This document shows, in pieces, positions 16,073 through 29,755 of a stretch of DNA of 64,000 nt. The position numbers and the translations under genes were made by a program. Within the stretch, counting starts at the first letter, position 1. The number at the start of each line of letters is the position of its first letter. This stretch comes from Stappia sediminis (GTDB lineage Bacteria; Pseudomonadota; Alphaproteobacteria; Rhizobiales; Stappiaceae): the NCBI RefSeq assembly GCF_009826895.1, contig NZ_WUMV01000002.1, positions 496,001 through 560,000 on the forward strand. Reading direction: 5' to 3'. The notes under the pieces were generated by a model, which did no database searches, had not been told where the DNA came from, and was given only the letters and a program-made list of their open reading frames with translations.

Positions 16073-16522
16073 ATGAAATCCAGTAACCGCATTGTGCTCT
16101 CTAGCGACCACGCCGCCATTCAGCTCCGACAAGCTATTGCCTCTCATATAGCGGCGTGCGGCTGGGTGGTGGTCGACATCGGGCCGACGACCCCGGAGAG
16201 CACGCACTATCCCAAGCACGGCGAGGCGGCAGCGCGGCTTGTGGCCTCTGGCGATTGCCGGTTTGGTATTATCCTGTGCGGCACCGGCCAAGGCATCATG
16301 ATGGCGGCGAACAAGGTAGCGGGCATCCGGTGCGGCATCTGCGCCGATACTTTCTCAGCCCGTATGATCCGCCAGCACAACGATGCCAACATGCTGTCGA
16401 TAGGTGCGCGTGTGGTGGGCGAAGGGTTGGCGCTCGATATTGTTGATGCGTTTCTGACCGCAAAGTTCGAGGGCGGCCGGCATGCGATGCGGGTGGAGAT
16501 GATTGCGGCTCTGGAAGGGTAG
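16073..16522 (+). CDS. rpiB: RpiB/LacAB-family sugar-phosphate isomerase
   Basis: A 149-residue RpiB-type enzyme interconverting phosphorylated aldose and ketose, typically ribose 5-phosphate and ribulose 5-phosphate. Seen are the N-terminal VLSSDHAAIQLRQAI (phosphate/active-site Asp-His), YPKHGEAAARLVASG, the catalytic Cys loop GIILCGTGQGIMMAANK and the catalytic His segment RQHNDANMLSIGARVVG. Length is normal. In Hyphomicrobiales RpiB paralogues also act on tetrose phosphates (erythritol pathway), so the exact sugar is open. It sits directly after the IS3 remnant and convergent with the flavoprotein gene, 20 bp away. Confidence 0.88.
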   Translation: MKSSNRIVLSSDHAAIQLRQAIASHIAACGWVVVDIGPTTPESTHYPKHGEAAARLVASGDCRFGIILCGTGQGIMMAANKVAGIRCGICADTFSARMIRQHNDANMLSIGARVVGEGLALDIVDAFLTAKFEGGRHAMRVEMIAALEG

Positions 16523-16542: not shown

Positions 16543-18987
16543 TCAGACTTTCACACGCTCCATCTTCGGATCGTATAGGGGGGAAAGCGCCACGCTGCAG
16601 GGCACCCTTTCGGTTGCGACTTCAAGCTCGTATTCGCCGTCGGCTATATAGTCCGCGCTCACGCCTGACGGATTGCGGATATAGCCCATGCCGATCGACC
16701 TGCCGATCGTGTGGCCGAAGCCTGCGGAAGACAGCCAGCCGACCCGTTCTCCATTGCGGTAGATCGTTTCGCGGCCAAGCAATATGATGCTCGGATCGGC
16801 GATGAAGGTCGCCATTCTTTTCTTCACGCCCTGCTGGCGTTGAGCCTCGATAGCGGCTCGTCCCTTGAAGTCGATGTTCTTTCTCATTTTCACCGCCCAG
16901 CCGAGGCCGGCCTCATCCGGGGTGTGATCGGGCCCAATGTCGGAAGACCAGGCGCGGTAGCCCTTCTCCAGGCGCAAGGTCTCTATCGCCCGATACCCGG
17001 CATTTACGAGACCGAGAGGGTCGCCGGCTTCGTGAAGCGCTGCATAAACGGTCGTTGTGTATTCCACCGGAATATGCAGCTCCCATCCGAGTTCGCCGAC
17101 GTATGTCACGCGCAGAGCAGTGACCGGGCAGCCGGCAATGCCGATTACATTGGCGGTGCCGAATGGGAACGCCTCGTTGGAGACGTCCGCCGATGTTACC
17201 TTGCTCAGGATATCCCGCGCCCTCGGTCCCATCAGCGACAAAACCGAATTCGATGAGGTGATGTCTACCAGCTGGGCATTCATGCCGTTGGGAATGTTTC
17301 GCGAAATCCAGTCGAAATCATGCGTCGCGAAGCCGGTGCCGGTGACGATGTAATATTCATCGGGCTTCATCCGGGCGACCGTCAGGTCGCACTCGATTCC
17401 GCCATGGTCGTTCAGCATCTGGGTGTAGACCAGACTGCCGACGGGCTTGTCGACATCGTTGGAGGCGATCCAGCTCAGCGCGTCGCAGGCATCCGGACCC
17501 TTGAGGATGAACTTTGCGAACGAGGTCTGATCGAAGAGCGCGGCCGCCTCTCGGCAGGCCTTGTGCTCGCGACCTACCGCGTCGTGCCAGTTCGGCCGTC
17601 CGAAGGTGTAGATATCCTTCTGCTCCTCTCCGGCAGCGGCATCAGCGTACCAGTTCGGCCGTTCCCAGCCGAGCTTTTCTCCGAACACTGCACCATTGGC
17701 CAGGAGTGTGTCGTAAAGCGGCGACTTCCTGCAGGGGCGGGCGGATCGGTTTTCCTCCGACGGCCATGCCATGGTGTAGTGCTTGCCGTACGCCTCGTAG
17801 GTGCGCTTTCTGATCCAGTCATCATCGAAATGAGGACGTCCGAAGCGGCGTATGTCGGCGGGCCAGAGGTCGAATGGCGCTTCCCCATTGCGTATCCATT
17901 CGGCCAATGCCATGCCGGCGCCGCCTCCGGACGCGATGCCGAAAGCGTTGAAACCCGCGCCGACGAAGAAGTTGCGTTGCTCCGGAGCTTCCCCGAGGAT
18001 GAACATGCCATCCGGCGTGAAACTTTCCGGCCCGTTGATCAGTTCCTTGATGCCCGCCGTTTCGAGGGCCGGGACCCGGCCAAGCGACAATTCCATCAGT
18101 TGCTCGAAATGGTCGAAATCGCTGTCGAGGAGCGTGTAGTGGAACCCCCTGGGAATGCCATCCTTTGCCCAGAGGACCGGGTTCGGTTCGTAGCCGCCCA
18201 TTACCAAACCGCCGACCTCTTCCTTGTAGTAGGTGAGGCGATCCGGGTCTCGCAGGGTCGGCAGATTGGAAGGCACGCCGTCTATCCGCTCCGTCACCAT
18301 GTACTGGTGCTCGACAGGGACGAGCGGCACATTGATGCCGTGGATTTTCGCGAATGCGCGCGTCCATTGCCCGCAGCAGGCAACGACCTTTTCGCAGTCG
18401 ACGCGCCCGTGTTCGGTCTCAACGCCCTTGATGACACCGTCCTGGATATCGACCGACAGTACCTTGGTGTCTTCGAATATCCTGGCGCCCGCCATTCTTG
18501 CGCCCTTCGCGAGCGCTTGCGTGATATCGGACGGATTTGCCTGTCCGTCCGTTGGCAGGAAGGCGGCGCCAACGACATCGTCGATATTCATCAGCGGCCA
18601 CAGATCGAGTGCTTCCTTCGGCGTCAGCAGCTGCATATCCAGGCCGAAGCTGTGAGCCGTCGTTGCCTGCCGGCGCACTTCCGTCCATCGTTCCTCGTTG
18701 CAGGCAAGGCGCAAGCCACCGTTCATTTTCCAGCCGGTCGCCTGTCCGGTTTCTTCCTCCAGCTTGTTGTACAGGTCAATCGAATATCCCAGAAGCTGGG
18801 TCACATTGGCGTTCGAACGCAACTGTCCGACAAGGCCCGCGGCGTGGAATGTCGTTCCGGACGTCAGCTTCTTGCGCTCGAACAGGACGACTTCGACCCC
18901 GGCCTTTGCAAGGTGATAGGCGGTCGAACAGCCGATAATGCCGCCGCCGATGACGATCACCTTGGAGGAGGAGGGAAGCTGGGTCAT
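16543..18987 (-). CDS. FAD-dependent dimethylglycine/sarcosine dehydrogenase-like protein (DAO + GcvT domains), copy 1
   Basis: An 814-residue two-part flavoenzyme. Residues 1-400 are a D-amino-acid-oxidase-type FAD domain (VIVIGGGIIGCSTAYHLAKAG, then TTFHAAGLVGQLRSN, where the His matches the residue that covalently holds FAD in mitochondrial DMGDH). Residues ~430-814 are the aminomethyltransferase-like folate-binding region (LGWELHIPVEYTTTV, RAIETLRLEKGYRAWSSD). The family oxidatively demethylates N-methylglycines and passes the one-carbon unit to tetrahydrofolate. Length matches the two-domain family. It is transcribed divergently from the DeoR regulator. AGAGGA precedes the ATG. It is similar along its whole length to the protein at 20370-22793. 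The actual methylated substrate is not known. Confidence 0.85.
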   Translation of the reverse strand: MTQLPSSSKVIVIGGGIIGCSTAYHLAKAGVEVVLFERKKLTSGTTFHAAGLVGQLRSNANVTQLLGYSIDLYNKLEEETGQATGWKMNGGLRLACNEERWTEVRRQATTAHSFGLDMQLLTPKEALDLWPLMNIDDVVGAAFLPTDGQANPSDITQALAKGARMAGARIFEDTKVLSVDIQDGVIKGVETEHGRVDCEKVVACCGQWTRAFAKIHGINVPLVPVEHQYMVTERIDGVPSNLPTLRDPDRLTYYKEEVGGLVMGGYEPNPVLWAKDGIPRGFHYTLLDSDFDHFEQLMELSLGRVPALETAGIKELINGPESFTPDGMFILGEAPEQRNFFVGAGFNAFGIASGGGAGMALAEWIRNGEAPFDLWPADIRRFGRPHFDDDWIRKRTYEAYGKHYTMAWPSEENRSARPCRKSPLYDTLLANGAVFGEKLGWERPNWYADAAAGEEQKDIYTFGRPNWHDAVGREHKACREAAALFDQTSFAKFILKGPDACDALSWIASNDVDKPVGSLVYTQMLNDHGGIECDLTVARMKPDEYYIVTGTGFATHDFDWISRNIPNGMNAQLVDITSSNSVLSLMGPRARDILSKVTSADVSNEAFPFGTANVIGIAGCPVTALRVTYVGELGWELHIPVEYTTTVYAALHEAGDPLGLVNAGYRAIETLRLEKGYRAWSSDIGPDHTPDEAGLGWAVKMRKNIDFKGRAAIEAQRQQGVKKRMATFIADPSIILLGRETIYRNGERVGWLSSAGFGHTIGRSIGMGYIRNPSGVSADYIADGEYELEVATERVPCSVALSPLYDPKMERVKV

Positions 18988-19082: not shown

Positions 19083-19169
19083 TCCACAATTACGCTTGAA
19101 ATATGCACGTCATCCCTCAAAAGTCCACAAAAGAGCTCGGGAATTCGTTGGATATTGTGATATTGTCAC
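19083..19169. promoter_or_regulatory. Putative DeoR operator half-sites in divergent promoter
   Basis: The 262 bp between the divergent dehydrogenase and deoR genes contains TCCACAAT (19083), GTCCACAAAAG (19123-19133) and ATATTGTGATATTGTCAC (19152-19169). These resemble, in both orientations, the TTTGTGGAA and ATTGTGTTG half-sites found upstream of the other dehydrogenase and of the transporter. Their arrangement is looser than in those two promoters. Autoregulation by the DeoR protein is an inference. Confidence 0.4.
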
Positions 19170-19249: not shown

Positions 19250-20053
19250 ATGGATGCATACCCCAATCATACGCAACGGCAGATTCTGAACGAGTTGCGC
19301 AAGGTGGGTGGACTGCAAAAGATCAGCGTTCTTGCTGAAACGTTGGACATTTCCGGCGAGACCGTGCGGCGCAACGTCAAGCGGCTCGTCGAAATGGGAA
19401 CCGTGGAAAAATCGCACGGCAGCGTGCAGCTGATCGATCAGGAGGAACAGGAAGAAGGCAACCTTCAGGAGCGGCTGAACCTGAACCAGGCGGCCAAGAA
19501 ACGAATTGCCGGCTTTGTCGCAAGGATGATCCCCAACGAGTGCTCGCTCTTTTTGGATATCGGCAGTACCACCGCCTTCATCGCAGACGCACTTCGTGGT
19601 CACCGCAAACTCATGATCGTGACCAACTCGGTCTACGTCGCCTACCGGCTTTCCATGCGCAATGAGAACCGCGTGTTCATGGCGGGAGGTGAATTGCGGG
19701 GCGAAGATGGTGGTGCTTTCGGGGCCGATGCGATGGCATTCGTTTCCAATTTCCACACGGATTTCGCCATCCTTTCCACCGCGGGTCTCGATCCTCGAAA
19801 TGGCTTTACGCTTTTCGATCTGGAGGAAGCCAAGTTTTCCCGGCACATTATGGGAAATTCCGGCACCCGGATCATGGCTTGCGATTCAAGCAAGTTCGGA
19901 CGGGAAGGGGCGGTAACGATCGGCAATCCCGAGCAGGTTGACCACCTCGTGACCGACACCACACCGCCGGAGGCCTTGCAGGTTGCGATGCGCGACTGGG
20001 GCATCGAAGTGCACCTCGCCGATTGGGTCAAAAACGCCGCCGCAGGCTCTTGA
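19250..20053 (+). CDS. DeoR/GlpR-family transcriptional regulator
   Basis: A 267-residue DeoR-type repressor. The N-terminal helix-turn-helix (RQILNELRKVGGLQKISVLAETLDIS, then GETVRRNVKRLVEMGTVEK) is followed by the sugar-isomerase-like effector domain with LFLDIGSTTAFIADAL, IVTNSVYVAYRLS, GGELRGEDGGAFG and MACDSSKFGREGAVTIG. DeoR proteins usually sense phosphorylated metabolites. That fits the two small-molecule kinases in the cluster and suggests a phosphorylated inducer. The ATG at 19250 has a strong GGAGG ribosome site. It is transcribed divergently from the first dehydrogenase and is the only regulator in the 16-30 kb block. Confidence 0.88.
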   Translation: MDAYPNHTQRQILNELRKVGGLQKISVLAETLDISGETVRRNVKRLVEMGTVEKSHGSVQLIDQEEQEEGNLQERLNLNQAAKKRIAGFVARMIPNECSLFLDIGSTTAFIADALRGHRKLMIVTNSVYVAYRLSMRNENRVFMAGGELRGEDGGAFGADAMAFVSNFHTDFAILSTAGLDPRNGFTLFDLEEAKFSRHIMGNSGTRIMACDSSKFGREGAVTIGNPEQVDHLVTDTTPPEALQVAMRDWGIEVHLADWVKNAAAGS

Positions 20054-20260: not shown

Positions 20261-20303
20261 AATAACACAAAAAGCTGCAAATTGTGTTGATATTTGTGGA
20301 AAC
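20261..20303. promoter_or_regulatory. Operator-like motif upstream of second dehydrogenase
   Basis: ATTGTGTTG at 20281-20289 and TTTGTGGAA at 20293-20301 are separated by three bases. The same two nine-mers with the same spacing occur at 24704-24724 before the transporter. An inverted AACACAA lies just ahead at about 20264-20270, giving a dyad AACACAA...TTGTGTT. The 316 bases between deoR and the dehydrogenase otherwise hold no gene. Confidence 0.6.
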
Positions 20304-20369
20304 ATATTGCCCATTTAAACGGAGAAAGCATCGGGAGTGTGGTTCGAATTGCATGATGGGGAGCCGGAA

Positions 20370-22793
20370 ATGAGCCGCCTTGAAGCAAAGCACCTGATCA
20401 TTGGCGGCGGCATCATTGGGTGCTCGATAGCCTATCATCTGGCCAGGAACGGCGAGAAGGATGTCGTGCTTCTGGAAAAGTCATCCCTGACCGAAGGTGC
20501 TACATGGCATGCCGCTGGTCTGATCGGTCAGCTTCGCTCTTCCCGGAACACGACCCGGATGCTGAAGCGTTCGGTTGCCATGTACGATAGTCTGGAAAAA
20601 GAAACCGGCATGGCTTTCGACTGGAAGAAAGTCGGCAGCCTGCGTCTCGCGGTCACGAAAGAACGTCTTCTGGAAGCCCGGCGCCTGACGACGATGGCGC
20701 GCAGCTTCGGTCTGGAAATGCATATGATTTCCGCAGAAGAGGCAAAGTCGCTTTTCCCTTATATCGATGCCACCGGACTTCTTGGCGCTGCCTATGTCCC
20801 CTCCGACGGTCATGTGGATCCGGCAAGCCTGACCCAGGCGATCGCATCCGCCGCGCGAAAAGCCGGCGTAAAGATCAGGCAGGGCATCAAGGTTGAGGGT
20901 TTTGAAGTCGATGAAGGCCGCATCACCAAGGTGCAGACAAATGGGGGGGATTATTCGGCTGATGTCGTTGTCCTTGCCGCCGGCATGTGGAGCCGGGAAC
21001 TTGGCGCGAAGCTTGGAATTCGTGTGCCGGCATGCGCCGTCGAGCATCAGTACATCGTTACCGAACCTCTGCCGGATGTGGAACTGGTCAGGAACCTGCC
21101 AACGCTGCGCGATCCGGAGCGGCTGGTCTATTACAAGCCCGATGCCGGCGGGCGGCTGGTAATCGGTGGATATGAAGAGGGGACATTACCGTTCGGGGAA
21201 AACGGAATTCCCGGAGAATTCGCCCGTCAACTTCTTCCTGACAATCTGGATCGGTTTGGGCCGCTAGCCGAGCTTGCCGCCGAGGTGACACCCGTCTTGA
21301 ACGAGGTCGGTATCAGGACCGTGATCAATGGACCTATCCCATATTCCGCCGATGGCGACTTCGTGATGGGCTGGGCGCCAGGCTTCGATAATCTGATGAT
21401 GGCCACCGGCTTTTTATACGGTATTGCCGCCGGTGGCGGTGCGGGCGAAATGATTGCCGAATGGATTACGCAGGGGCGCCCGAGCCTGGATCTCTGGCCA
21501 CTCGACATTCGTCGCTTCGGTCCGCATCACGGGACGAAAGCCTTCATGTATCCCCGCGCGGTGGAGCATTATGCCCACCATTACAAGATGCGTTATCCAG
21601 GTCAGGAGCACGAGAGCGCCCGCCAGCTCCGTCTTTCGCCGCTCTATGGCATCCTGAAGGAGCGTGGCGCGGTCTATGGATCCAAGAACGGCTGGGAACG
21701 GCCTTTGTGGTTCGCGCCCGAAGGTGTGGAACCTGTCGACCAGCTCGACTTCCTCGAACCCGGCTGGCACAAATACGCCGCCGAGGAACACAAGGCGGTC
21801 CGCGAAGGCGTGGCGTTGATCGACCAGTCGAGCTTTTCAAAGTTCGAGATGATTGGTCCGGGCTCTCTCGATCTCCTGCAAAAGATTGCGGCCTGCAACA
21901 TGGACAGGCCCACGGGTTCGGTCATCTACGCCCAGTTGTGCAACGACCGCGGCGGGATCGAGGCGGATGTGACGGTCACCCGGCTCGGAAGAGACCATTT
22001 CTATATAATCACCGGTTCGGGCTTCGGCACGCACGATGCGGACTGGATTCGTCGGCACATGCCGAAGGATGGCTCGGTGCAGTTGATCGAGATGACCTCG
22101 GCGCGTGCGGTCATCAACATTTGCGGCCCGAAGTCACGCGATGTCTTGCAAGCGGTTTGCGAGCAGGATGTTTCCAACGACGCGTTTCCCTTCGCAACAG
22201 CGCGGGAAATTGTCATCGGGGCGGCCCCGGTACGTGCGGCGCGGATCGGCTTTGTCGGCGAACTGGGGTGGGAGCTGCATGCGCCAACCGAATTCGGCGC
22301 TCATGTCTATAGCGTTCTGCGCGAAGCCGGTGAACCGTTCGGGATCCGCGATGTTGGCTATCGTGCGATCGACAGTCTGCGCCTTGAGAAAGGTTATCTC
22401 TATTGGTCCGCCGATATTTCTCCCGACTATACGCCTCTCGAAGCCGGATTGGGTTTTCGGGTTCATCTGAAATCGGGTGGTGCTTTCCTCGGCCGAGATG
22501 TGCTGGCAAGGCAGAAAGCAGAGGGGGTGCAGCGTAAACTCTGCACTTTCGTTACCGATGCAAGGCTTCCGGTTTTCGGTGGCGAGACTATCCTCCATGG
22601 CGGTGAAACGGTCTCGCTCGCGACGTCGGCAGGCTTCGGTCACACCGTCGGCAAGTCAATCATCTTCGGATATCTGGGTGCCGAACTGTGGGATCGCGAG
22701 GCATTCGAGATCGAGGTCTTTGGAAACCGCCATCCAGTCGAGCGTGTGGACGGGCCGCTTTACGATCCGCGAAACGAACGGTTGAAAGCCTGA
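20370..22793 (+). CDS. FAD-dependent dimethylglycine/sarcosine dehydrogenase-like protein (DAO + GcvT domains), copy 2
   Basis: An 807-residue paralogue of the flavoprotein on the opposite strand at 16543-18987. FAD domain: HLIIGGGIIGCSIAYHLARNG and ATWHAAGLIGQLRSSRNTT, with the candidate covalent-FAD His. C-terminal folate/GcvT half: FVGELGWELHAPTEF and RAIDSLRLEKGYLYWSADIS. The ATG at 20370 is chosen over GTG 20337 because GGGGAG is suitably placed. It is followed after 10 bases by a choline-kinase-like gene, so the two form an operon. Having two divergent paralogues in one cluster suggests sequential removal of two methyl groups or two related substrates. This is an inference. Confidence 0.85.
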   Translation: MSRLEAKHLIIGGGIIGCSIAYHLARNGEKDVVLLEKSSLTEGATWHAAGLIGQLRSSRNTTRMLKRSVAMYDSLEKETGMAFDWKKVGSLRLAVTKERLLEARRLTTMARSFGLEMHMISAEEAKSLFPYIDATGLLGAAYVPSDGHVDPASLTQAIASAARKAGVKIRQGIKVEGFEVDEGRITKVQTNGGDYSADVVVLAAGMWSRELGAKLGIRVPACAVEHQYIVTEPLPDVELVRNLPTLRDPERLVYYKPDAGGRLVIGGYEEGTLPFGENGIPGEFARQLLPDNLDRFGPLAELAAEVTPVLNEVGIRTVINGPIPYSADGDFVMGWAPGFDNLMMATGFLYGIAAGGGAGEMIAEWITQGRPSLDLWPLDIRRFGPHHGTKAFMYPRAVEHYAHHYKMRYPGQEHESARQLRLSPLYGILKERGAVYGSKNGWERPLWFAPEGVEPVDQLDFLEPGWHKYAAEEHKAVREGVALIDQSSFSKFEMIGPGSLDLLQKIAACNMDRPTGSVIYAQLCNDRGGIEADVTVTRLGRDHFYIITGSGFGTHDADWIRRHMPKDGSVQLIEMTSARAVINICGPKSRDVLQAVCEQDVSNDAFPFATAREIVIGAAPVRAARIGFVGELGWELHAPTEFGAHVYSVLREAGEPFGIRDVGYRAIDSLRLEKGYLYWSADISPDYTPLEAGLGFRVHLKSGGAFLGRDVLARQKAEGVQRKLCTFVTDARLPVFGGETILHGGETVSLATSAGFGHTVGKSIIFGYLGAELWDREAFEIEVFGNRHPVERVDGPLYDPRNERLKA

Positions 22794-22803
22794 GGAGAGA
22801 TTT

Positions 22804-23733
22804 ATGGTGCAACATGCGGACTCGGTCATTTCAGCCCTTCGCAAGGCCCCCGGCTTTTCCGATCTCAAGGCTGAGGAATGTTCGATAACGCGCCTCGGCG
22901 GGCTCACCAATCTGGTGCATCGGGTTTCAGCGCCTCAGGGCGATGTGATCGTCCGCATACCTGGCGAAGGCACGGAGGAATATATCGACCGCGCGGTAGA
23001 GGCCACCAACGCCAGGGCCGCGCATCGTGCCGGGGTCTCGCCGGAAGTGTTATGGGCGGATGCCGAAACTGGAGTGATGATCACGCGCGCCATCGATGGC
23101 ATCACCACCATGACGCCCGATCTCTTCAAATCCCGCTCAGGCTCGCCTGCTCGGGCCGGCCAAGCACTGGCGAAACTGCATCGTTCGGGTGAAACGTTCG
23201 ACTTCCGGTTCGAGCTGTTTTCCATGATCGACGGATATCTGAAAGTGCTCTCCACGAAGGATACGGATCTGCCTGAAGGGTATCATGGCATCGTCAAGGC
23301 GGCGGAACCGGTCAAGGAAGTTCTAGCAGCCAGTCGGGTGCAACTGGCCCCCTGTCATTGCGACCCGCTTTGCGAAAACTTCCTGGACGACGGCGAGATC
23401 ATGTGGATCGTCGACTGGGAATATTCAGGCATGAACGATCCATTGTGGGATGTGGGCGATCTCTCGGTCGAGGCGGGGATGGACGAAAGGCAGGAAGCTG
23501 AGCTCCTGCGCGGTTATTTCGGCAGGAACCCGAGCGCGGCGGAGAAGGGACGCGTCGTGATCTACAAGGCGATGTGCGATCTGCTCTGGACCTTGTGGGG
23601 GCTGATCCAGCATGCCGACGGCAATCCGGCGGAAGATTTCTGGGCCTATGCCACCACCCGGTTCGAGCGCTGCAAGGCGCTGATGCAGAGTGCGGAATTC
23701 GACAGCCACGTTGCAGCGATACGCGCCGTATAG
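22804..23733 (+). CDS. Choline/ethanolamine-kinase-like phosphotransferase (APH fold), copy 1
   Basis: A 309-residue kinase-like protein. A glycine-rich N-lobe (SITRLGGLTNLVHRVSAP) precedes the invariant Lys-equivalent region VIVRIPGEGTEEYIDR. The Brenner motif is CHCDPLCENFL (Asp base, Asn metal ligand), followed by the metal-binding IVDWEYSGMNDPLWDVG. This pattern (H-x-D-x4-N plus DWEY) is characteristic of choline/ethanolamine and related small-alcohol kinases. Context, with a betaine-type transporter and N-demethylating flavoproteins, suggests an N-methylated amino alcohol as substrate. It lies 10 bases after the dehydrogenase gene and is cotranscribed. The target is not proven; the APH superfamily also includes antibiotic kinases. 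Confidence 0.82.
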   Translation: MVQHADSVISALRKAPGFSDLKAEECSITRLGGLTNLVHRVSAPQGDVIVRIPGEGTEEYIDRAVEATNARAAHRAGVSPEVLWADAETGVMITRAIDGITTMTPDLFKSRSGSPARAGQALAKLHRSGETFDFRFELFSMIDGYLKVLSTKDTDLPEGYHGIVKAAEPVKEVLAASRVQLAPCHCDPLCENFLDDGEIMWIVDWEYSGMNDPLWDVGDLSVEAGMDERQEAELLRGYFGRNPSAAEKGRVVIYKAMCDLLWTLWGLIQHADGNPAEDFWAYATTRFERCKALMQSAEFDSHVAAIRAV

Positions 23734-23787
23734 AGGCCAATTCGATTTAATGACCGTCTTGTTCGCTGCCATGCGTCCGGCAATTTT

Positions 23788-24564
23788 TCAGGCGTCGATT
23801 ACGGCGAGCAATTCGTCGCGTAGCGCCGGGGTCGCGGCGGTGACGACACGGCCGTCCGAGTCGATGCCGAGCGGATTGCCCTTCCAGTCGCTCATCACGC
23901 CGCCTGCGGCTGCGACAAGCCCAACCAGAGGAAGATAGTCGTAAGGCTCCAGTCCGAAATCCACCACCGCGTCGATCTGTCCCGAGGCGACGAGCGCATG
24001 GGGATAGCAATCATAGGCCATGCGCCGGGTATGGCCTGTCCTGCAAAGGCGAAAGAAGCGCTCCGGGTCATCGGCGCTCAGCCGTTCTGCCTCATTGATA
24101 TAGACCATGGCCTCGCCAAGGCGTGTAGTGTCGCGGCAGGTTATCGTCTCTCCATTGCGCGTGGCGCGCTGGCCCGAAAAGCCGACATAGGTTTCATTCA
24201 GCGCGGGCATGCGCACGATGCCGATTTGCGGGGTACCGTTCACGATGCGCCCGAGCAACATTCCAAACAGCGGATTTCCTGTAATGAACGACCGCGTGCC
24301 ATCGATCGGGTCGATGAACCAGATCGCGTCTGCGCCCTGATTTTCGGTTCCGAACTCTTCGCCGAAAATCCCGTCATCGGGAAAAGCTTCGGCCAGTTCC
24401 TTGCGTATGAAGGCTTCCGTTGACCGGTCCGCGATGGTCACCGGGCTGTCGTCGGCCTTGGCCTCCAGATCGAGCGGAGAGCGGAAATATTCCATCGGGA
24501 TGCGGCTTGCCCGCTCCACGATTTTGCTCGCCCGTCGGACAATATCGTCGATATCGGCTTCCAT
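23788..24564 (-). CDS. Inositol monophosphatase-family phosphatase (HisN-like)
   Basis: A 258-residue IMPase-superfamily Mg2+-dependent phosphatase. Metal-site motifs are visible: the Glu pair in DDGIFGEEFG, WFIDPIDGTRSFITGNPLFG (the DPxDG motif) and the C-terminal LEPYDYLPLVGLVAAAGG (Asp ligand). The DGTRSFITG wording is typical of the HisN type of histidinol-phosphatase common in Hyphomicrobiales. The start is the ATG at 24564. Its position, divergent from the transporter and sharing its promoter region with the repeated operator, suggests a dedicated role in dephosphorylating a cluster metabolite. A housekeeping histidine role cannot be excluded. Confidence 0.82.
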   Translation of the reverse strand: MEADIDDIVRRASKIVERASRIPMEYFRSPLDLEAKADDSPVTIADRSTEAFIRKELAEAFPDDGIFGEEFGTENQGADAIWFIDPIDGTRSFITGNPLFGMLLGRIVNGTPQIGIVRMPALNETYVGFSGQRATRNGETITCRDTTRLGEAMVYINEAERLSADDPERFFRLCRTGHTRRMAYDCYPHALVASGQIDAVVDFGLEPYDYLPLVGLVAAAGGVMSDWKGNPLGIDSDGRVVTAATPALRDELLAVIDA

Positions 24565-24685
24565 GTTTTTTCCGCTCGGTCCGGCCGCCAGTTGGCTGTC
24601 GTTGCAGCCGATAACTGGCACTGCGCGTGATGGCATTGTGAAGGTTATGCAAAAGCACGCCGGACCGCCACAGATAAGCGCATAT

Positions 24686-24724
24686 TTCCACAAAATCTGT
24701 TGGATTGTGTTGCGTTTTGTGGAA
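24686..24724. promoter_or_regulatory. Operator-like motif between phosphatase and transporter genes
   Basis: A perfect 10 bp inverted repeat TTCCACAAAA (24686-24695) / TTTTGTGGAA (24715-24724) brackets ATTGTGTTG (24704-24712). The arrangement ATTGTGTTG, three bases, TTTGTGGAA is identical to that upstream of the second dehydrogenase. It lies in the divergent promoter region of the HisN-like phosphatase and the periplasmic binding protein and so could regulate both. Confidence 0.65.
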
Positions 24725-24790: not shown

Positions 24791-25732
24791 ATGGCACGTA
24801 AACTCCTGGCGGCTGTGGCTGCCTTCTCCACCTTGGCGGTTCATGGCGCGTTGGCGGAACCGGAATCGACCGACCCGATCAAGCTGACTACCCATGACTG
24901 GACCGGTCAGATTGTGACCACGACGATCATGGGCGAGGTGCTGAAGAACGCCGGTTACAATGTCGAATATGTCCAGGCCGACTACATCGCCCAGTTCGCA
25001 GGGTTGAAAACCGGTGATCTCCACGTCGCCATGGAGATTTGGGAAACGACCGGCCGCGAAGCGATGGATGAAGCGACTGCCACCGGCAATGTCGTGAACA
25101 TGGGCGAAACGGGGATGGTCGCGATCGAGGAGTGGTGGTACCCGGCCTATATGGCGGACGTTTGCCCCGGTCTGCCGGATTGGAAAGCGCTGAACGACTG
25201 CGCTGAGGAATTCGCGACGCCGGAAACCGCGCCGCTCGGACGCTATCTCGGCGGGCCGGTCACCTGGGGCGGCTTTGACGATGAACGCGTTGAAGCCCTC
25301 GGGATGGATTTCGAAGTCGTCCATGCCGGCACGGATGCGGCTCTCTTTGCAGAGCTTGAATCCGCCTATCAACGCAAGGCGCCGATCGTGCTCTGGCTCT
25401 ACACCCCTCACTGGGCGCCGTCGAAATACGAAGGCAGTTTCGTGAAATTCCCGCCTTATTCGGCGGAATGTTACAACGATCCGTCAGTCGGCATTAATCC
25501 CGACGCCGCTTATGACTGTGGCAAGCCGACGGGGCCGATCTGGAAAGTCGCGTGGAAAGGCGTCGAGGAAAAATGGCCGGGCGCGGCGAAAGCGATAAAG
25601 GCTTTCAAGGTCAGCAACGCGGATATGGGCGAGATGGTCGCAAAGGTCGATCTTCAGGGAATGTCCGTCGATGACGTGGTTGCCGAGTGGATGGCGGCCA
25701 ACAAAGATAGCTGGAGTTCCTGGGCGCAGTAA
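24791..25732 (+). CDS. Glycine betaine-type ABC transporter substrate-binding protein (OpuAC/ProX family)
   Basis: A 313-residue periplasmic protein with a signal peptide of about 22 residues (ending in HGALAEP). The mature part is an OpuAC/ProX-type domain. Aromatic residues likely to cage a quaternary ammonium are seen in THDWTGQ, EIWETTG, EEWWYPAYM and LWLYTPHWAP. There are several cysteines (ADVCPGLP, NDCAEEF, AECYNDP, YDCGKP) that could form two disulphides. It heads a four-gene operon with the ATPase, permease and a kinase. It binds a betaine-like ligand by family; which one is unknown. Confidence 0.88.
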   Translation: MARKLLAAVAAFSTLAVHGALAEPESTDPIKLTTHDWTGQIVTTTIMGEVLKNAGYNVEYVQADYIAQFAGLKTGDLHVAMEIWETTGREAMDEATATGNVVNMGETGMVAIEEWWYPAYMADVCPGLPDWKALNDCAEEFATPETAPLGRYLGGPVTWGGFDDERVEALGMDFEVVHAGTDAALFAELESAYQRKAPIVLWLYTPHWAPSKYEGSFVKFPPYSAECYNDPSVGINPDAAYDCGKPTGPIWKVAWKGVEEKWPGAAKAIKAFKVSNADMGEMVAKVDLQGMSVDDVVAEWMAANKDSWSSWAQ

Positions 25733-25770: not shown

Positions 25771-25812
25771 TTATTGTGTCTGACGACCTGATGCTCAAGA
25801 CCGGAGTTGGCG

Positions 25813-26841
25813 ATGGAGCGCCCCGTCATCCTTGATTGCCGCGGAGTGTGGAAACTTTACGGGCCTCATACCAGGAATTTTCTTGAAAAACATAACGGCT
25901 CGCCCACCGACATGGCTTTGGCGGAAGCCAACATCATCAGCGCGGTGCGCGATGCCAGCGTGAAAATCCGCAAGGGCGAAATTTTCGTCATCATGGGTTT
26001 GTCGGGATCGGGCAAGTCCACGTTGGTGCGTTGCCTGTCCCGTCTCGTCGAGCCGACGGCAGGCGAAATCCGCTTCGAGGGCAGCGATCTGCTGGCGATG
26101 AGCGAGAACGAACTCATTCATCTGCGGCGGAAGAAGATGGGCATGGTGTTTCAGCACTTTGCCTTGTTGCCGCACCTCACGGTGCTTCAGAACGCGGCCT
26201 TTCCGCTTGATGTTCAGGGCGTGGATCGCCGCACTCGCGAGGAAAAGGCGCGCCAGATGATCGACATCGTCGGTCTGACCGGGAGGGAAGATTACTATCC
26301 CCGGCAGTTGTCCGGTGGCCAGCAGCAGCGCGTCGGCATTGCCCGCTCGCTTGTCGCAGATCCTGACCTGTGGTTCCTCGACGAACCGTTTTCGGCGCTG
26401 GATCCGCTTATTCGCCGTGAGATGCAGGATGAGTTTCTCCGGCTTCAATCGATGTTACAAAAGACGATTGTCTTCATCACGCATGATTTCGACGAGGCGA
26501 TCCGGCTTGCAGATCGTATTGCGGTCATGAAGGGCGGGCGCATCGAGCAGACGGCCACGCCCGAGGAACTGGTTCTCAATCCTTCGACGCCTTATGTCGA
26601 GGAGTTCACGCGCCACGTTCCGCGCGCCAAGGTGATGAAACTGCGCTCCGTCATGTCGCCGGATGTTCCCGATGGCGTCTACGCGGGGGAACTTTCGGGC
26701 AATCGGACCGTCGCGGATACAATCCATCAGATCGATGCCGCGACGCACCCCTTCAAGGTGACCGGGGAAGAAGGCGAGGTCATCGGAACCATCGATGCCC
26801 GCACCGCGATAGACGTCATGATCGGGCGGACCGGCGCATGA
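25813..26841 (+). CDS. Glycine betaine-type ABC transporter ATP-binding protein (ProV/OpuAA family)
   Basis: A 342-residue ABC ATPase. Walker A is GLSGSGKSTLVRCLSRLVEP, the Q-loop region is MVFQHFALLPH, the signature LSGGQQQRVGIARSL, Walker B LWFLDEPFSALD and the switch His FITHDFDEA. It has the insertions typical of the ProV class, N-terminally a long segment before Walker A (YGPHTRNFLEKHNGSPTD). The C-terminal ~80 residues are a reduced regulatory region with one CBS-like stretch. The ATG at 25813 has CGGAG six bases ahead. Its stop overlaps the permease start by four bases. Confidence 0.92.
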   Translation: MERPVILDCRGVWKLYGPHTRNFLEKHNGSPTDMALAEANIISAVRDASVKIRKGEIFVIMGLSGSGKSTLVRCLSRLVEPTAGEIRFEGSDLLAMSENELIHLRRKKMGMVFQHFALLPHLTVLQNAAFPLDVQGVDRRTREEKARQMIDIVGLTGREDYYPRQLSGGQQQRVGIARSLVADPDLWFLDEPFSALDPLIRREMQDEFLRLQSMLQKTIVFITHDFDEAIRLADRIAVMKGGRIEQTATPEELVLNPSTPYVEEFTRHVPRAKVMKLRSVMSPDVPDGVYAGELSGNRTVADTIHQIDAATHPFKVTGEEGEVIGTIDARTAIDVMIGRTGA

Positions 26842-28883
26842 CGGATGGGGTGCACAATCGTGCTCGCCCGGCCCGGGCCCCGACAGCGGGTCTAAGCGGC
26901 TTCCCATCCTTTTCGGCGGTCTTCTGGATAGGGCTTTTTCTTGTCACCTGGGCGCTGTCGACATGGTCGTTTGCGCTTTACAAGACGTTCGATGCGCGCT
27001 GGATCATCCGCTATCCCAAGAAGCTTGAAATTCCCCTCGATACATGGATTTCCAACGCAACCAACTGGCTTGTCGAGGATTTGAATTTCGGGTTCTTCAC
27101 CTTTCGCGATGTTACGCGTTTCATCTCCGCCATTATCGAAGCGCCTTACGACATCATGCGTTCATTGCTGGTCGACGGCTTCATGATCGGGCAGGGGCAG
27201 CAGGCGATTGACGTCGCGCCGCCACTCAGTTGGATCGCGATTATCTCAATTGCCGTTTCGCTTGCACTTTATGCAAAGGACCGGTGGCTTGCCATTCTGG
27301 TTGGCGTTTGCTTTGCCTATCTCGCTGCCTTCGGACAGTGGGATAGCGCCATGGTTACACTGGCTTCGGTGCTGATAGCCGTTCCCATCGGTGTTGCCGG
27401 GGGGCTTGCGCTTGGCATCGTCGCCTACCGGCTGCCGGCGTTCGAACGGATGTTGCGTCCCGTTCTGGACCTGATGCAGACCGTGCCTGTCTTCGCCTAT
27501 CTCGTGCCTATTCTGGTGCTGTTCGGCTTTGGCCCCGTGGCCGCGTTGATCGCAACCGTGATCTACGCCATGCCGCCGATGGTGCGCATCTCGACAGTGG
27601 CGCTCCATTCGGTGCCCGAAGAGGTGATCGAGGCAGGTCGCATGGTCGGGTGCCGGCGCGGTCAGCTCATGTGGAAGGTCCTGATCCCGACCGCAATGCC
27701 GTCTCTCATGGTTGGCGTCAACCAGGTCATCATGCTTACCCTCAATATGGTGATTATCGCATCGATGATCGGAGCAGGCGGGCTTGGCTACGACGTTTTG
27801 ACGGCGTTGCGACGCCTCGACATCGGCGGCGGCATAGAGGCGGGGCTCGCCATCGTCGTAATGGCCATCGCGCTGGACCGTCTAAGTCAGGCATTCGCCG
27901 TAAGGCGCGTGCGCCCGCACCTGGATCCGCAGCTGCCTTTTCACAAACGCCATCCCGTTTTTACGCTTGTCGTTGCAATTGCTGTCTTTACGACACTCGC
28001 GGGCGCCTATCTTCCGGCATTTCGTGAATATCCGGCAAGGCTGACTTTGACCACGGGAACGTTCTGGAACTCCACAATCGAGTGGATCAACGTCAATTTC
28101 TTCGATTCGATCGAGGCCGTAAAAACTGTCCTGCTGAACGTCCTGCTGCTTCCGGTAAAGCGGTTCTTCACAGGCATTCCATGGGCTTGGGGTATCGTTG
28201 TGGTCGGCCTGGCGGCGGCGCGCATATGCGGCTGGAAGCTTGGCGTCATGGCGGCGGCGATGACTTTTTTCATCGCCGCATCCGGCCTTTGGCGCGAGGC
28301 GATGACCACCGTCTACCTTTGTTCGGTTTCAGTGTTGATCGCGAGCGTGATCGGTATCCCGCTGGGCATTTGGGCCGGTCAGAATCCAAGAGCCAACTCG
28401 GTCATCGGTGCGATGATCGACACGCTGCAGACGTTGCCTAGTTTCGTTTATCTTATCCCGGTGGTGATGCTTTTCCGTGTGGGCGATTTTTCGGCGATGA
28501 TAGCGGTTGTGCTTTATGCGCTGGCGCCGGCCGTGCGTTACGCCGCGCACGGGATCCGCTCGGTCGATGAAGAGTTGATAGAAGCCGGAAAGGTGTCCGG
28601 CTGCACCAGCCGCCAGATCCTTTGGCGGATCAAGTTGCCTCTCGCTGCGCCGTCGCTTCTCCTGGGCCTGAACCAGACCATCATGCTGGCGATTTCGATG
28701 CTCGTCATAACGGCGCTCGTCGGCACGCGCGACCTCGGTCAGGAGGTCTATATCGCTCTCACCAAGGCCAACATAGGCCAGGGCATCGTCGCCGGCCTTT
28801 CGGTGGCCTTCATCGCGATCATCGCGGATCGGGTGGTCACGGCGCTTGCACGGTCCTCTCAACAAAAGCTGGGGCTGACATGA
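26838..28883 (+). CDS. Glycine betaine-type ABC permease, tandem-duplicated (two permease domains)
   Basis: A 681-residue membrane protein, about twice the size of a typical ProW permease. Each half carries a BPD transporter domain with its EAA loop: EEVIEAGRMVGCRRGQLMW in the first and EELIEAGKVSGCTSRQILWR in the second. These are followed by homologous helices (VGVNQVIMLTLNMVIIASM and LGLNQTIMLAISMLVITAL). The halves join near residue 360. A single chain thus likely supplies both membrane subunits that normally dimerise. Start and stop overlap neighbouring genes by four bases on each side, so coupling is tight. Confidence 0.9.
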   Translation: MTDGVHNRARPARAPTAGLSGFPSFSAVFWIGLFLVTWALSTWSFALYKTFDARWIIRYPKKLEIPLDTWISNATNWLVEDLNFGFFTFRDVTRFISAIIEAPYDIMRSLLVDGFMIGQGQQAIDVAPPLSWIAIISIAVSLALYAKDRWLAILVGVCFAYLAAFGQWDSAMVTLASVLIAVPIGVAGGLALGIVAYRLPAFERMLRPVLDLMQTVPVFAYLVPILVLFGFGPVAALIATVIYAMPPMVRISTVALHSVPEEVIEAGRMVGCRRGQLMWKVLIPTAMPSLMVGVNQVIMLTLNMVIIASMIGAGGLGYDVLTALRRLDIGGGIEAGLAIVVMAIALDRLSQAFAVRRVRPHLDPQLPFHKRHPVFTLVVAIAVFTTLAGAYLPAFREYPARLTLTTGTFWNSTIEWINVNFFDSIEAVKTVLLNVLLLPVKRFFTGIPWAWGIVVVGLAAARICGWKLGVMAAAMTFFIAASGLWREAMTTVYLCSVSVLIASVIGIPLGIWAGQNPRANSVIGAMIDTLQTLPSFVYLIPVVMLFRVGDFSAMIAVVLYALAPAVRYAAHGIRSVDEELIEAGKVSGCTSRQILWRIKLPLAAPSLLLGLNQTIMLAISMLVITALVGTRDLGQEVYIALTKANIGQGIVAGLSVAFIAIIADRVVTALARSSQQKLGLT

Positions 28884-29755
28884 ATGGGCTGGAACAAGCC
28901 ATAGCAAGAGCGCGGGCACTGCCTTGCTGGAGCGACCCGCGAGAGATCGAACCGCTTGAGGGCGGTATAACAAATCTTAATCTGACGCTGATGGACCGGG
29001 GCCGAAAATACGTCGTTCGCTTCGGAGACGATATCCCCGAACACGGCGTGATGCGGTTCAACGAACTTGCAATCAGCCGTGCCGCGGCAGCGGCCGGGAT
29101 TTCGCCGGCGGTGCATCATGTCGAAGCCGGCATTCTCGTGCTTGAATTCGTAGAGGCCGCGCCGCTGGCCGAAACGGATCTACACGACCAGGCTACGCTT
29201 GAGGATGTGGCACACCTCATTGCCCGGGCGCACCGTGAGGTTACAGCGCTCGCGCGTGGTCCGATCGTGACGTTCTGGGTGTTCCATATCCTTCGCGACT
29301 ACGCGGGATTTTTATCCAGCCGAAATTCTCCCCACGTTTCCAAGCTCCCACGGCTGATGCAGGAAGCCGAAAATCTCGAAAAAGCCGTCGGCAAGGTTGA
29401 TCTGGTGCTTGGGCACAACGACCTTTTGCCCGCGAATATTCTGCGAGGAGAAGATCGGTTCTGGCTCGTGGACTGGGAATACGGCGGCTTCAACTCGCCG
29501 CTGTTCGATCTCGGCGGTCTTGCGACCAATTGCGGCCTGCCGGATGAGGCAGAGCGGTTCCTGCTCAAGACCTATTTCGGTGCGGAGCCGGACGCCGGCC
29601 TGAAGCAGAGCTACAATGCGATGAAATGCGCCTCTCTGCTGCGCGAGACGATGTGGAGCATGGTATCTGAACTCACGTCCTCCATCGAATTCGATTATCG
29701 CGCCTATACAGATTCCAATCTCGACCGTTACCGGCGGGCTTACGAAAAGCTTTGA
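28880..29755 (+). CDS. Choline/ethanolamine-kinase-like phosphotransferase (APH fold), copy 2
   Basis: A 291-residue kinase-like protein related to the gene at 22804-23733. N-lobe: PLEGGITNLNLTLMDRGRKYVVRFGDD. Brenner motif: LVLGHNDLLPANIL. Metal loop: FWLVDWEYGGFNSPLFDLGG. It overlaps the permease stop by four bases, so it is made with the transporter and could trap the imported compound by phosphorylation. That role is inferred from position and family. Two different kinases in one cluster suggest either two substrates or two steps. Confidence 0.82.
   Translation: MNGLEQAIARARALPCWSDPREIEPLEGGITNLNLTLMDRGRKYVVRFGDDIPEHGVMRFNELAISRAAAAAGISPAVHHVEAGILVLEFVEAAPLAETDLHDQATLEDVAHLIARAHREVTALARGPIVTFWVFHILRDYAGFLSSRNSPHVSKLPRLMQEAENLEKAVGKVDLVLGHNDLLPANILRGEDRFWLVDWEYGGFNSPLFDLGGLATNCGLPDEAERFLLKTYFGAEPDAGLKQSYNAMKCASLLRETMWSMVSELTSSIEFDYRAYTDSNLDRYRRAYEKL

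Follow-up and report, generated by a model that had tools for sequence, protein, structure and literature searches.

A short motif, repeated at three promoters of one gene cluster of Stappia sediminis, is very probably the docking site of the DeoR-type regulator that the cluster itself encodes. The motif consists of TGTKG half-sites that recur every 10 bp, and from this it follows that successive half-sites lie on the same side of the DNA helix. There is good reason to regard the phased array that they form as the operator of the local DeoR protein, which would bind it cooperatively, repress the module, and respond to a phosphorylated inducer.

The cluster lies within a 64-kb stretch of DNA, the window. 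The gene for the DeoR-family regulator (19250..20053, plus strand; 267 aa, with an HTH_DeoR domain, a DeoRC sensor and the recognition helix ETVRRNVKRL) is divergent from DAOa (16543..18987, minus strand), which encodes the second DAO/GCV_T protein of the module. On the plus strand follow DAOb (20370..22793), encoding a DAO/FAO_M/GCV_T demethylating-dehydrogenase-like protein of 807 aa, and APH1 (22804..23733), encoding a choline/ethanolamine-kinase-like protein. A HisN-like phosphatase of the inositol-monophosphatase family (23788..24564, minus strand) is divergent from the transporter, which comprises an OpuAC-type substrate-binding protein (SBP; 24791..25732), an ABC transporter ATPase of the ProV/choline type (25807..26841), and an ABC permease of 681 aa with two permease domains (26838..28883), all on the plus strand, as is APH2 (28877..29755), which encodes a second choline-kinase-like protein. 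Two choline-kinase-like proteins thus occur within one module, and APH1 is close to the structural-genomics entry 3DXQ. An RpiB-type sugar-phosphate isomerase adjoins the module (16073-16522), and it was not found with the module in relatives.

The closest named genome is that of Hongsoonwoonella zoysiae, where the DeoR protein is 92% identical. Orthologous modules occur in the Rhodobacteraceae and in other families, with the same genes in other orders, and some of them are without DAOb, APH1, and the phosphatase. In the typical layout among relatives, SBP and deoR are divergent and the phosphatase lies directly behind deoR. No further genes recur widely beside the module across the relatives, and a literature search for a studied DeoR protein with the same gene set found none. 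The inclusion of the HisN-like phosphatase in the regulated block, as originally proposed, is reasonable, in that its gene diverges from the transporter across an operator and in many relatives is the next gene after deoR, in the same orientation.

The module is probably one for the uptake and demethylation of a methylated amine. SBP aligns over its full length with TmoX, from the trimethylamine N-oxide (TMAO) transporter TmoXWV (PDB 4XZ6; E 8.7e-81), in which the TMAO pocket is formed by Trp55, Trp102, Phe106, Glu131, Trp177, Phe220, and Trp222 (PMC8918994). Four of these seven residues have equivalents in SBP (Trp55, Trp102, Glu131, and Trp177), while Gly stands in place of Phe106, Trp in place of Phe220, and Tyr in place of Trp222, so that the complete pocket of a TMAO-specific TmoX is not present. 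Because these three residues differ, the ligand of SBP may be a methylated amine other than TMAO. A further difference from the TmoXWV setting is that the module includes kinases and DAO-GcvT enzymes and has no gene that was recognised as Tdm-type.

The starting observation was a 21-bp motif, ATTGTGTTG-N3-TTTGTGGAA, at 20281-20301 and 24704-24724, and both copies were located exactly there, as was an inverted TTCCACAAAA at 24686. When the window was scanned with up to three mismatches, these two copies alone were returned, while 0.02 would be expected from shuffled sequences. Pattern scans were also run on the whole genome (4.79 Mb), and there the two copies of the 21-bp motif had no other match with fewer than three mismatches. 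A degenerate 15-mer, TGTKGMNWTWTGTKG, had two exact matches genome-wide, which are the two motif copies, and its reversed-pattern control had none. With one mismatch allowed, the number of genome matches was 14, near the control level of nine; one of the 14 is the site in the deoR promoter, and the other loci that were inspected offered no convincing additional target. Among these matches, a folD-like gene (L058, G000:C12:422963) was considered as an extra target, with an operator match of one mismatch about 85 bp upstream, and was rejected in view of the absence of a phased partner array; the match is probably due to chance. A folD-like target would fit one-carbon flow. In 15 genomes, 12 of the 20 matches to the strict pattern fell inside the module, with one locus counted twice among the 12 (G498, G508), and the remainder were near control level. 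The motif is, accordingly, not frequent elsewhere in the genome, which was the first of the checks attached to the original prediction.

The copy upstream of DAOb contains the operator unit TGTTG-ATATT-TGTGG (20285..20299, plus strand), and it is preceded by an inverted unit that had been overlooked (20265..20279, minus strand; model match of 20 bp at 20261-20280, with the top score in the window). This inverted partner, ACACAAAAAG from 20265, stands at the same distance from the first copy as the corresponding element does from the second. The second copy, upstream of SBP, is part of three direct half-sites, TGTTG/TGTTG/TGTGG, in exact 10-bp steps (24698..24722, plus strand), with an inverted half-site CCACA within TTCCACAAAA (24688..24692, minus strand) and, 20 bp ahead of it, an outer inverted CCACA (24668..24672, minus strand). 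The SBP promoter therefore has five perfect half-sites, at offsets of 0, 20, 30, 40, and 50 bp. The orientation of its inner-left half-site is opposite to the usual pattern, and this counts against the operator model preferred here.

The divergent promoter of deoR and DAOa carries a weaker phased array, with half-sites at 0, 31, 41, 62, and, in diverged form, 72 bp. The first is TGTGG (19084..19088, minus strand), in a conserved AAATCCACAA; the next two, 31 and 41 bp away, form the unit TGTGG-ACTTT-TGAGG (19115..19129, minus strand), with a score of 11.0 in a model trained without the clade of the window. A weak unit, CGTTG-GATAT-TGTGA (19146..19160, plus strand), which has two mismatches to TGTKG-N5-TGTKG, follows, separated by 21 bp, or two turns, from the inverted half-site before it. 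The looser versions noted earlier at 19083-19169 are in this sense real: two half-sites are exact and several have one mismatch, and they are in helical phase and kept in two relatives, at lower strength than in the other two promoters. An imperfect palindrome, GTGA-N5-TCAC, also lies in the deoR promoter (19157-19169), largely kept in the relative L005 and not in G030, and may be the site of another factor.

The near identity of two 21-mers in one genome could in principle be due to chance or to a promoter fragment that was duplicated recently. When each motif copy is taken together with its inverted partner, the two 37-bp elements agree at 25 of their 37 positions, and no other place in the window matches the first element as well as the second element does. 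This identity is, however, concentrated at the half-site positions, both sites are kept in two close relatives together with the half-sites of the deoR promoter, and the motif is found in distant families, so that duplication or chance has a negligible probability.

De novo motif finding in the promoters of orthologous clusters gave aTGTTGCTTTTTGTgG, that is, TGTKG half-sites 10 bp apart, and expectation-maximisation on the regions upstream of SBP and DAOb gave aTGTTGCTTTTTGTgGttTt, with a log-likelihood of 250 for a reduced set of 26 regions, compared with 62-76 in 12 dinucleotide-preserving shuffles. When the model was trained on a set from which the window, its genus, and G030 had been removed, its top three matches in the 64 kb were at 20261 (minus strand), 20284 (plus), and 24707 (plus), and it also detected 19111 (minus) in the deoR promoter. 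Both of the sites from which the analysis set out are thus predicted out of sample. What changes is the unit: the motif itself stands, while its natural description is one TGTKG per 10 bp on one face of the helix, with an inverted partner run, rather than ATTGTGTTG-N3-TTTGTGGAA. A compact inverted pair, with a start-to-start distance of 23 and inner half-sites 10 bp apart, recurs exactly in seven loci from three families that were fetched later (L063, L064, L065, L077, L078, L079, and L084), and the SBP/deoR promoters of Rhodobacteraceae mostly have an inverted pair that is three turns wider.

Same-strand half-sites are spaced by 10, 21, or 31 bp, and inverted pairs (CMACA followed by TGTKG) cluster at 10, 20, 30, 41, 51, and 61 bp. 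In 35 promoter regions, a set without the closest relatives and without the duplicate locus L083 (= L010), a spacing of exactly 10 bp was counted for 24 same-strand pairs, against a shuffle mean of 0.1, and the phasing of inverted pairs has a Rayleigh nR2 of 37.3, where 300 shuffles reached no more than 3.7. Eight loci outside the motif discovery give a significant nR2 of 7.8, against 2.6. Since the loci share descent, such shuffle tests overstate independence, and the stronger point is that different whole-turn spacings recur in different lineages.

The regulator is assigned to the DeoR family by PF08220 (1.8e-8) and PF00455 (2.2e-45), both above the curated cut-offs, while among the named NCBIfam DeoR equivalogs (GlpR, AgaR, SrlR, UlaR, and others) the best score is 165 bits, compared with 331 required. 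It is the sole regulator conserved with the module. The motif adjoins a deoR gene in every family examined and recurs within deoR's own promoter, so that a second of the three checks, recurrence in orthologous clusters, also came out in favour of the original prediction. Its rarity in the genome and this recurrence support a single regulator, probably DeoR, for the block. In some clusters of Rhodobacteraceae a second DeoR protein, 37-39% identical and with RRI in its recognition helix, is encoded beside DAOb (L007:15106, L008:14437, L009:12741, and L014:15119), and its promoter carries the same motif, equally strong, so more than one DeoR paralogue may read it. From this one could argue that the motif is read mainly by another regulator, either a DeoR paralogue encoded elsewhere or a different factor, and that the local DeoR acts on other genes or on its own gene only. 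This is quite unlikely, in that the motif is not globally distributed in the genome, the local deoR promoter also carries it, and the window and close relatives have just one DeoR in the module. The recognition helix of the window-type DeoR has RRN, while many DeoR proteins have RRD. Clusters with RRN reach best promoter scores of 12.7-30.2, and those with RRD 3.6-27.3. Because these ranges overlap and RRN clusters were the ones on which the model had been trained, a link between RRN and the TGTKG motif is a weak trend, only suggestive, and is given no weight in the assignment.

Direct TGTKG runs are accompanied by inverted half-sites at whole-turn distances, and according to the preferred model this layout would allow several DeoR subunits, probably as a tetramer or as two dimers, to sit next to one another on the DNA and bind cooperatively. 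As long as substrate is absent, DeoR would occupy three places, namely the region ahead of DAOb, the intergenic region that separates SBP from the phosphatase, and the promoter that deoR shares with DAOa, and would keep the TmoX-like transporter, the two DAO-GcvT demethylases, the two choline-kinase-like enzymes, and the HisN-like phosphatase repressed. Substrate that enters through the transporter would be converted by a choline-kinase-like enzyme to a phosphorylated intermediate, which would bind the DeoRC domain and free the operators; both kinases could produce such an inducer and the phosphatase could remove it. Of the characterised regulators with a DeoRC domain, most (GlpR, DeoR, and AgaR) repress transcription until a phosphorylated metabolite releases them, and by this analogy the likeliest mode of control here is repression that such a metabolite lifts. 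The operators stop about 70 bp short of the start codons. A search near them for a consensus sigma-70 promoter found none, so that occlusion of a promoter is no more than a possible mode of repression, and this result counts against the preferred model. Both facts would fit an array that serves as an activator site, where ligand-bound DeoR activates DAOb and SBP. Against this stand the repressor mode of most characterised relatives and the frequent lack of a clear consensus in alphaproteobacterial promoters, and activation is considered unlikely.

Palindromic operators and looping are features of E. coli DeoR. The DeoRC sensor of the deoxyribose operon repressor DeoR (PDB 7L6L) is homologous to that of the present regulator over about 160 residues (E 1.4e-15), and the gene sets differ. 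A closer parallel in operator structure is RhaR, another local catabolic regulator of the DeoR family, whose operators were predicted to consist of a pair of imperfect direct repeats with a period of 10-11 bp, and for which a 38-bp region with four tandem sites from Chloroflexus was studied by EMSA with purified RhaR (PMC3870299). TGTKG-N5-TGTKG in the cluster promoters is an imperfect direct repeat of the same kind, but the half-site is TGTKG rather than TCGAAA, inverted partners occur at whole-turn distances, and the target is a methylated-amine-type module rather than a sugar pathway. DeoR operators with 10-11-bp direct repeats are thus already known, and what is new in this case is the TGTKG half-site, together with its target module and the arrangement of inverted half-sites in phase.

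A broader proposal, put forward tentatively, is that there is a DeoR subfamily that reads TGTKG arrays on one face of the helix, with direct and inverted runs one to five turns apart, where helical phase rather than a fixed palindrome would set repression, and that controls kinase-dependent demethylation of an N-methylated alcohol or amine with the phosphorylated form as inducer. With this array, an alphaproteobacterial module that has apparently not been studied before gains an operator code open to testing, and the inducer of the module would be a route to its substrate. Furthermore, lineages differ in the number of whole turns between half-sites, and this variation amounts to a natural experiment on how DeoR proteins use helical phase.
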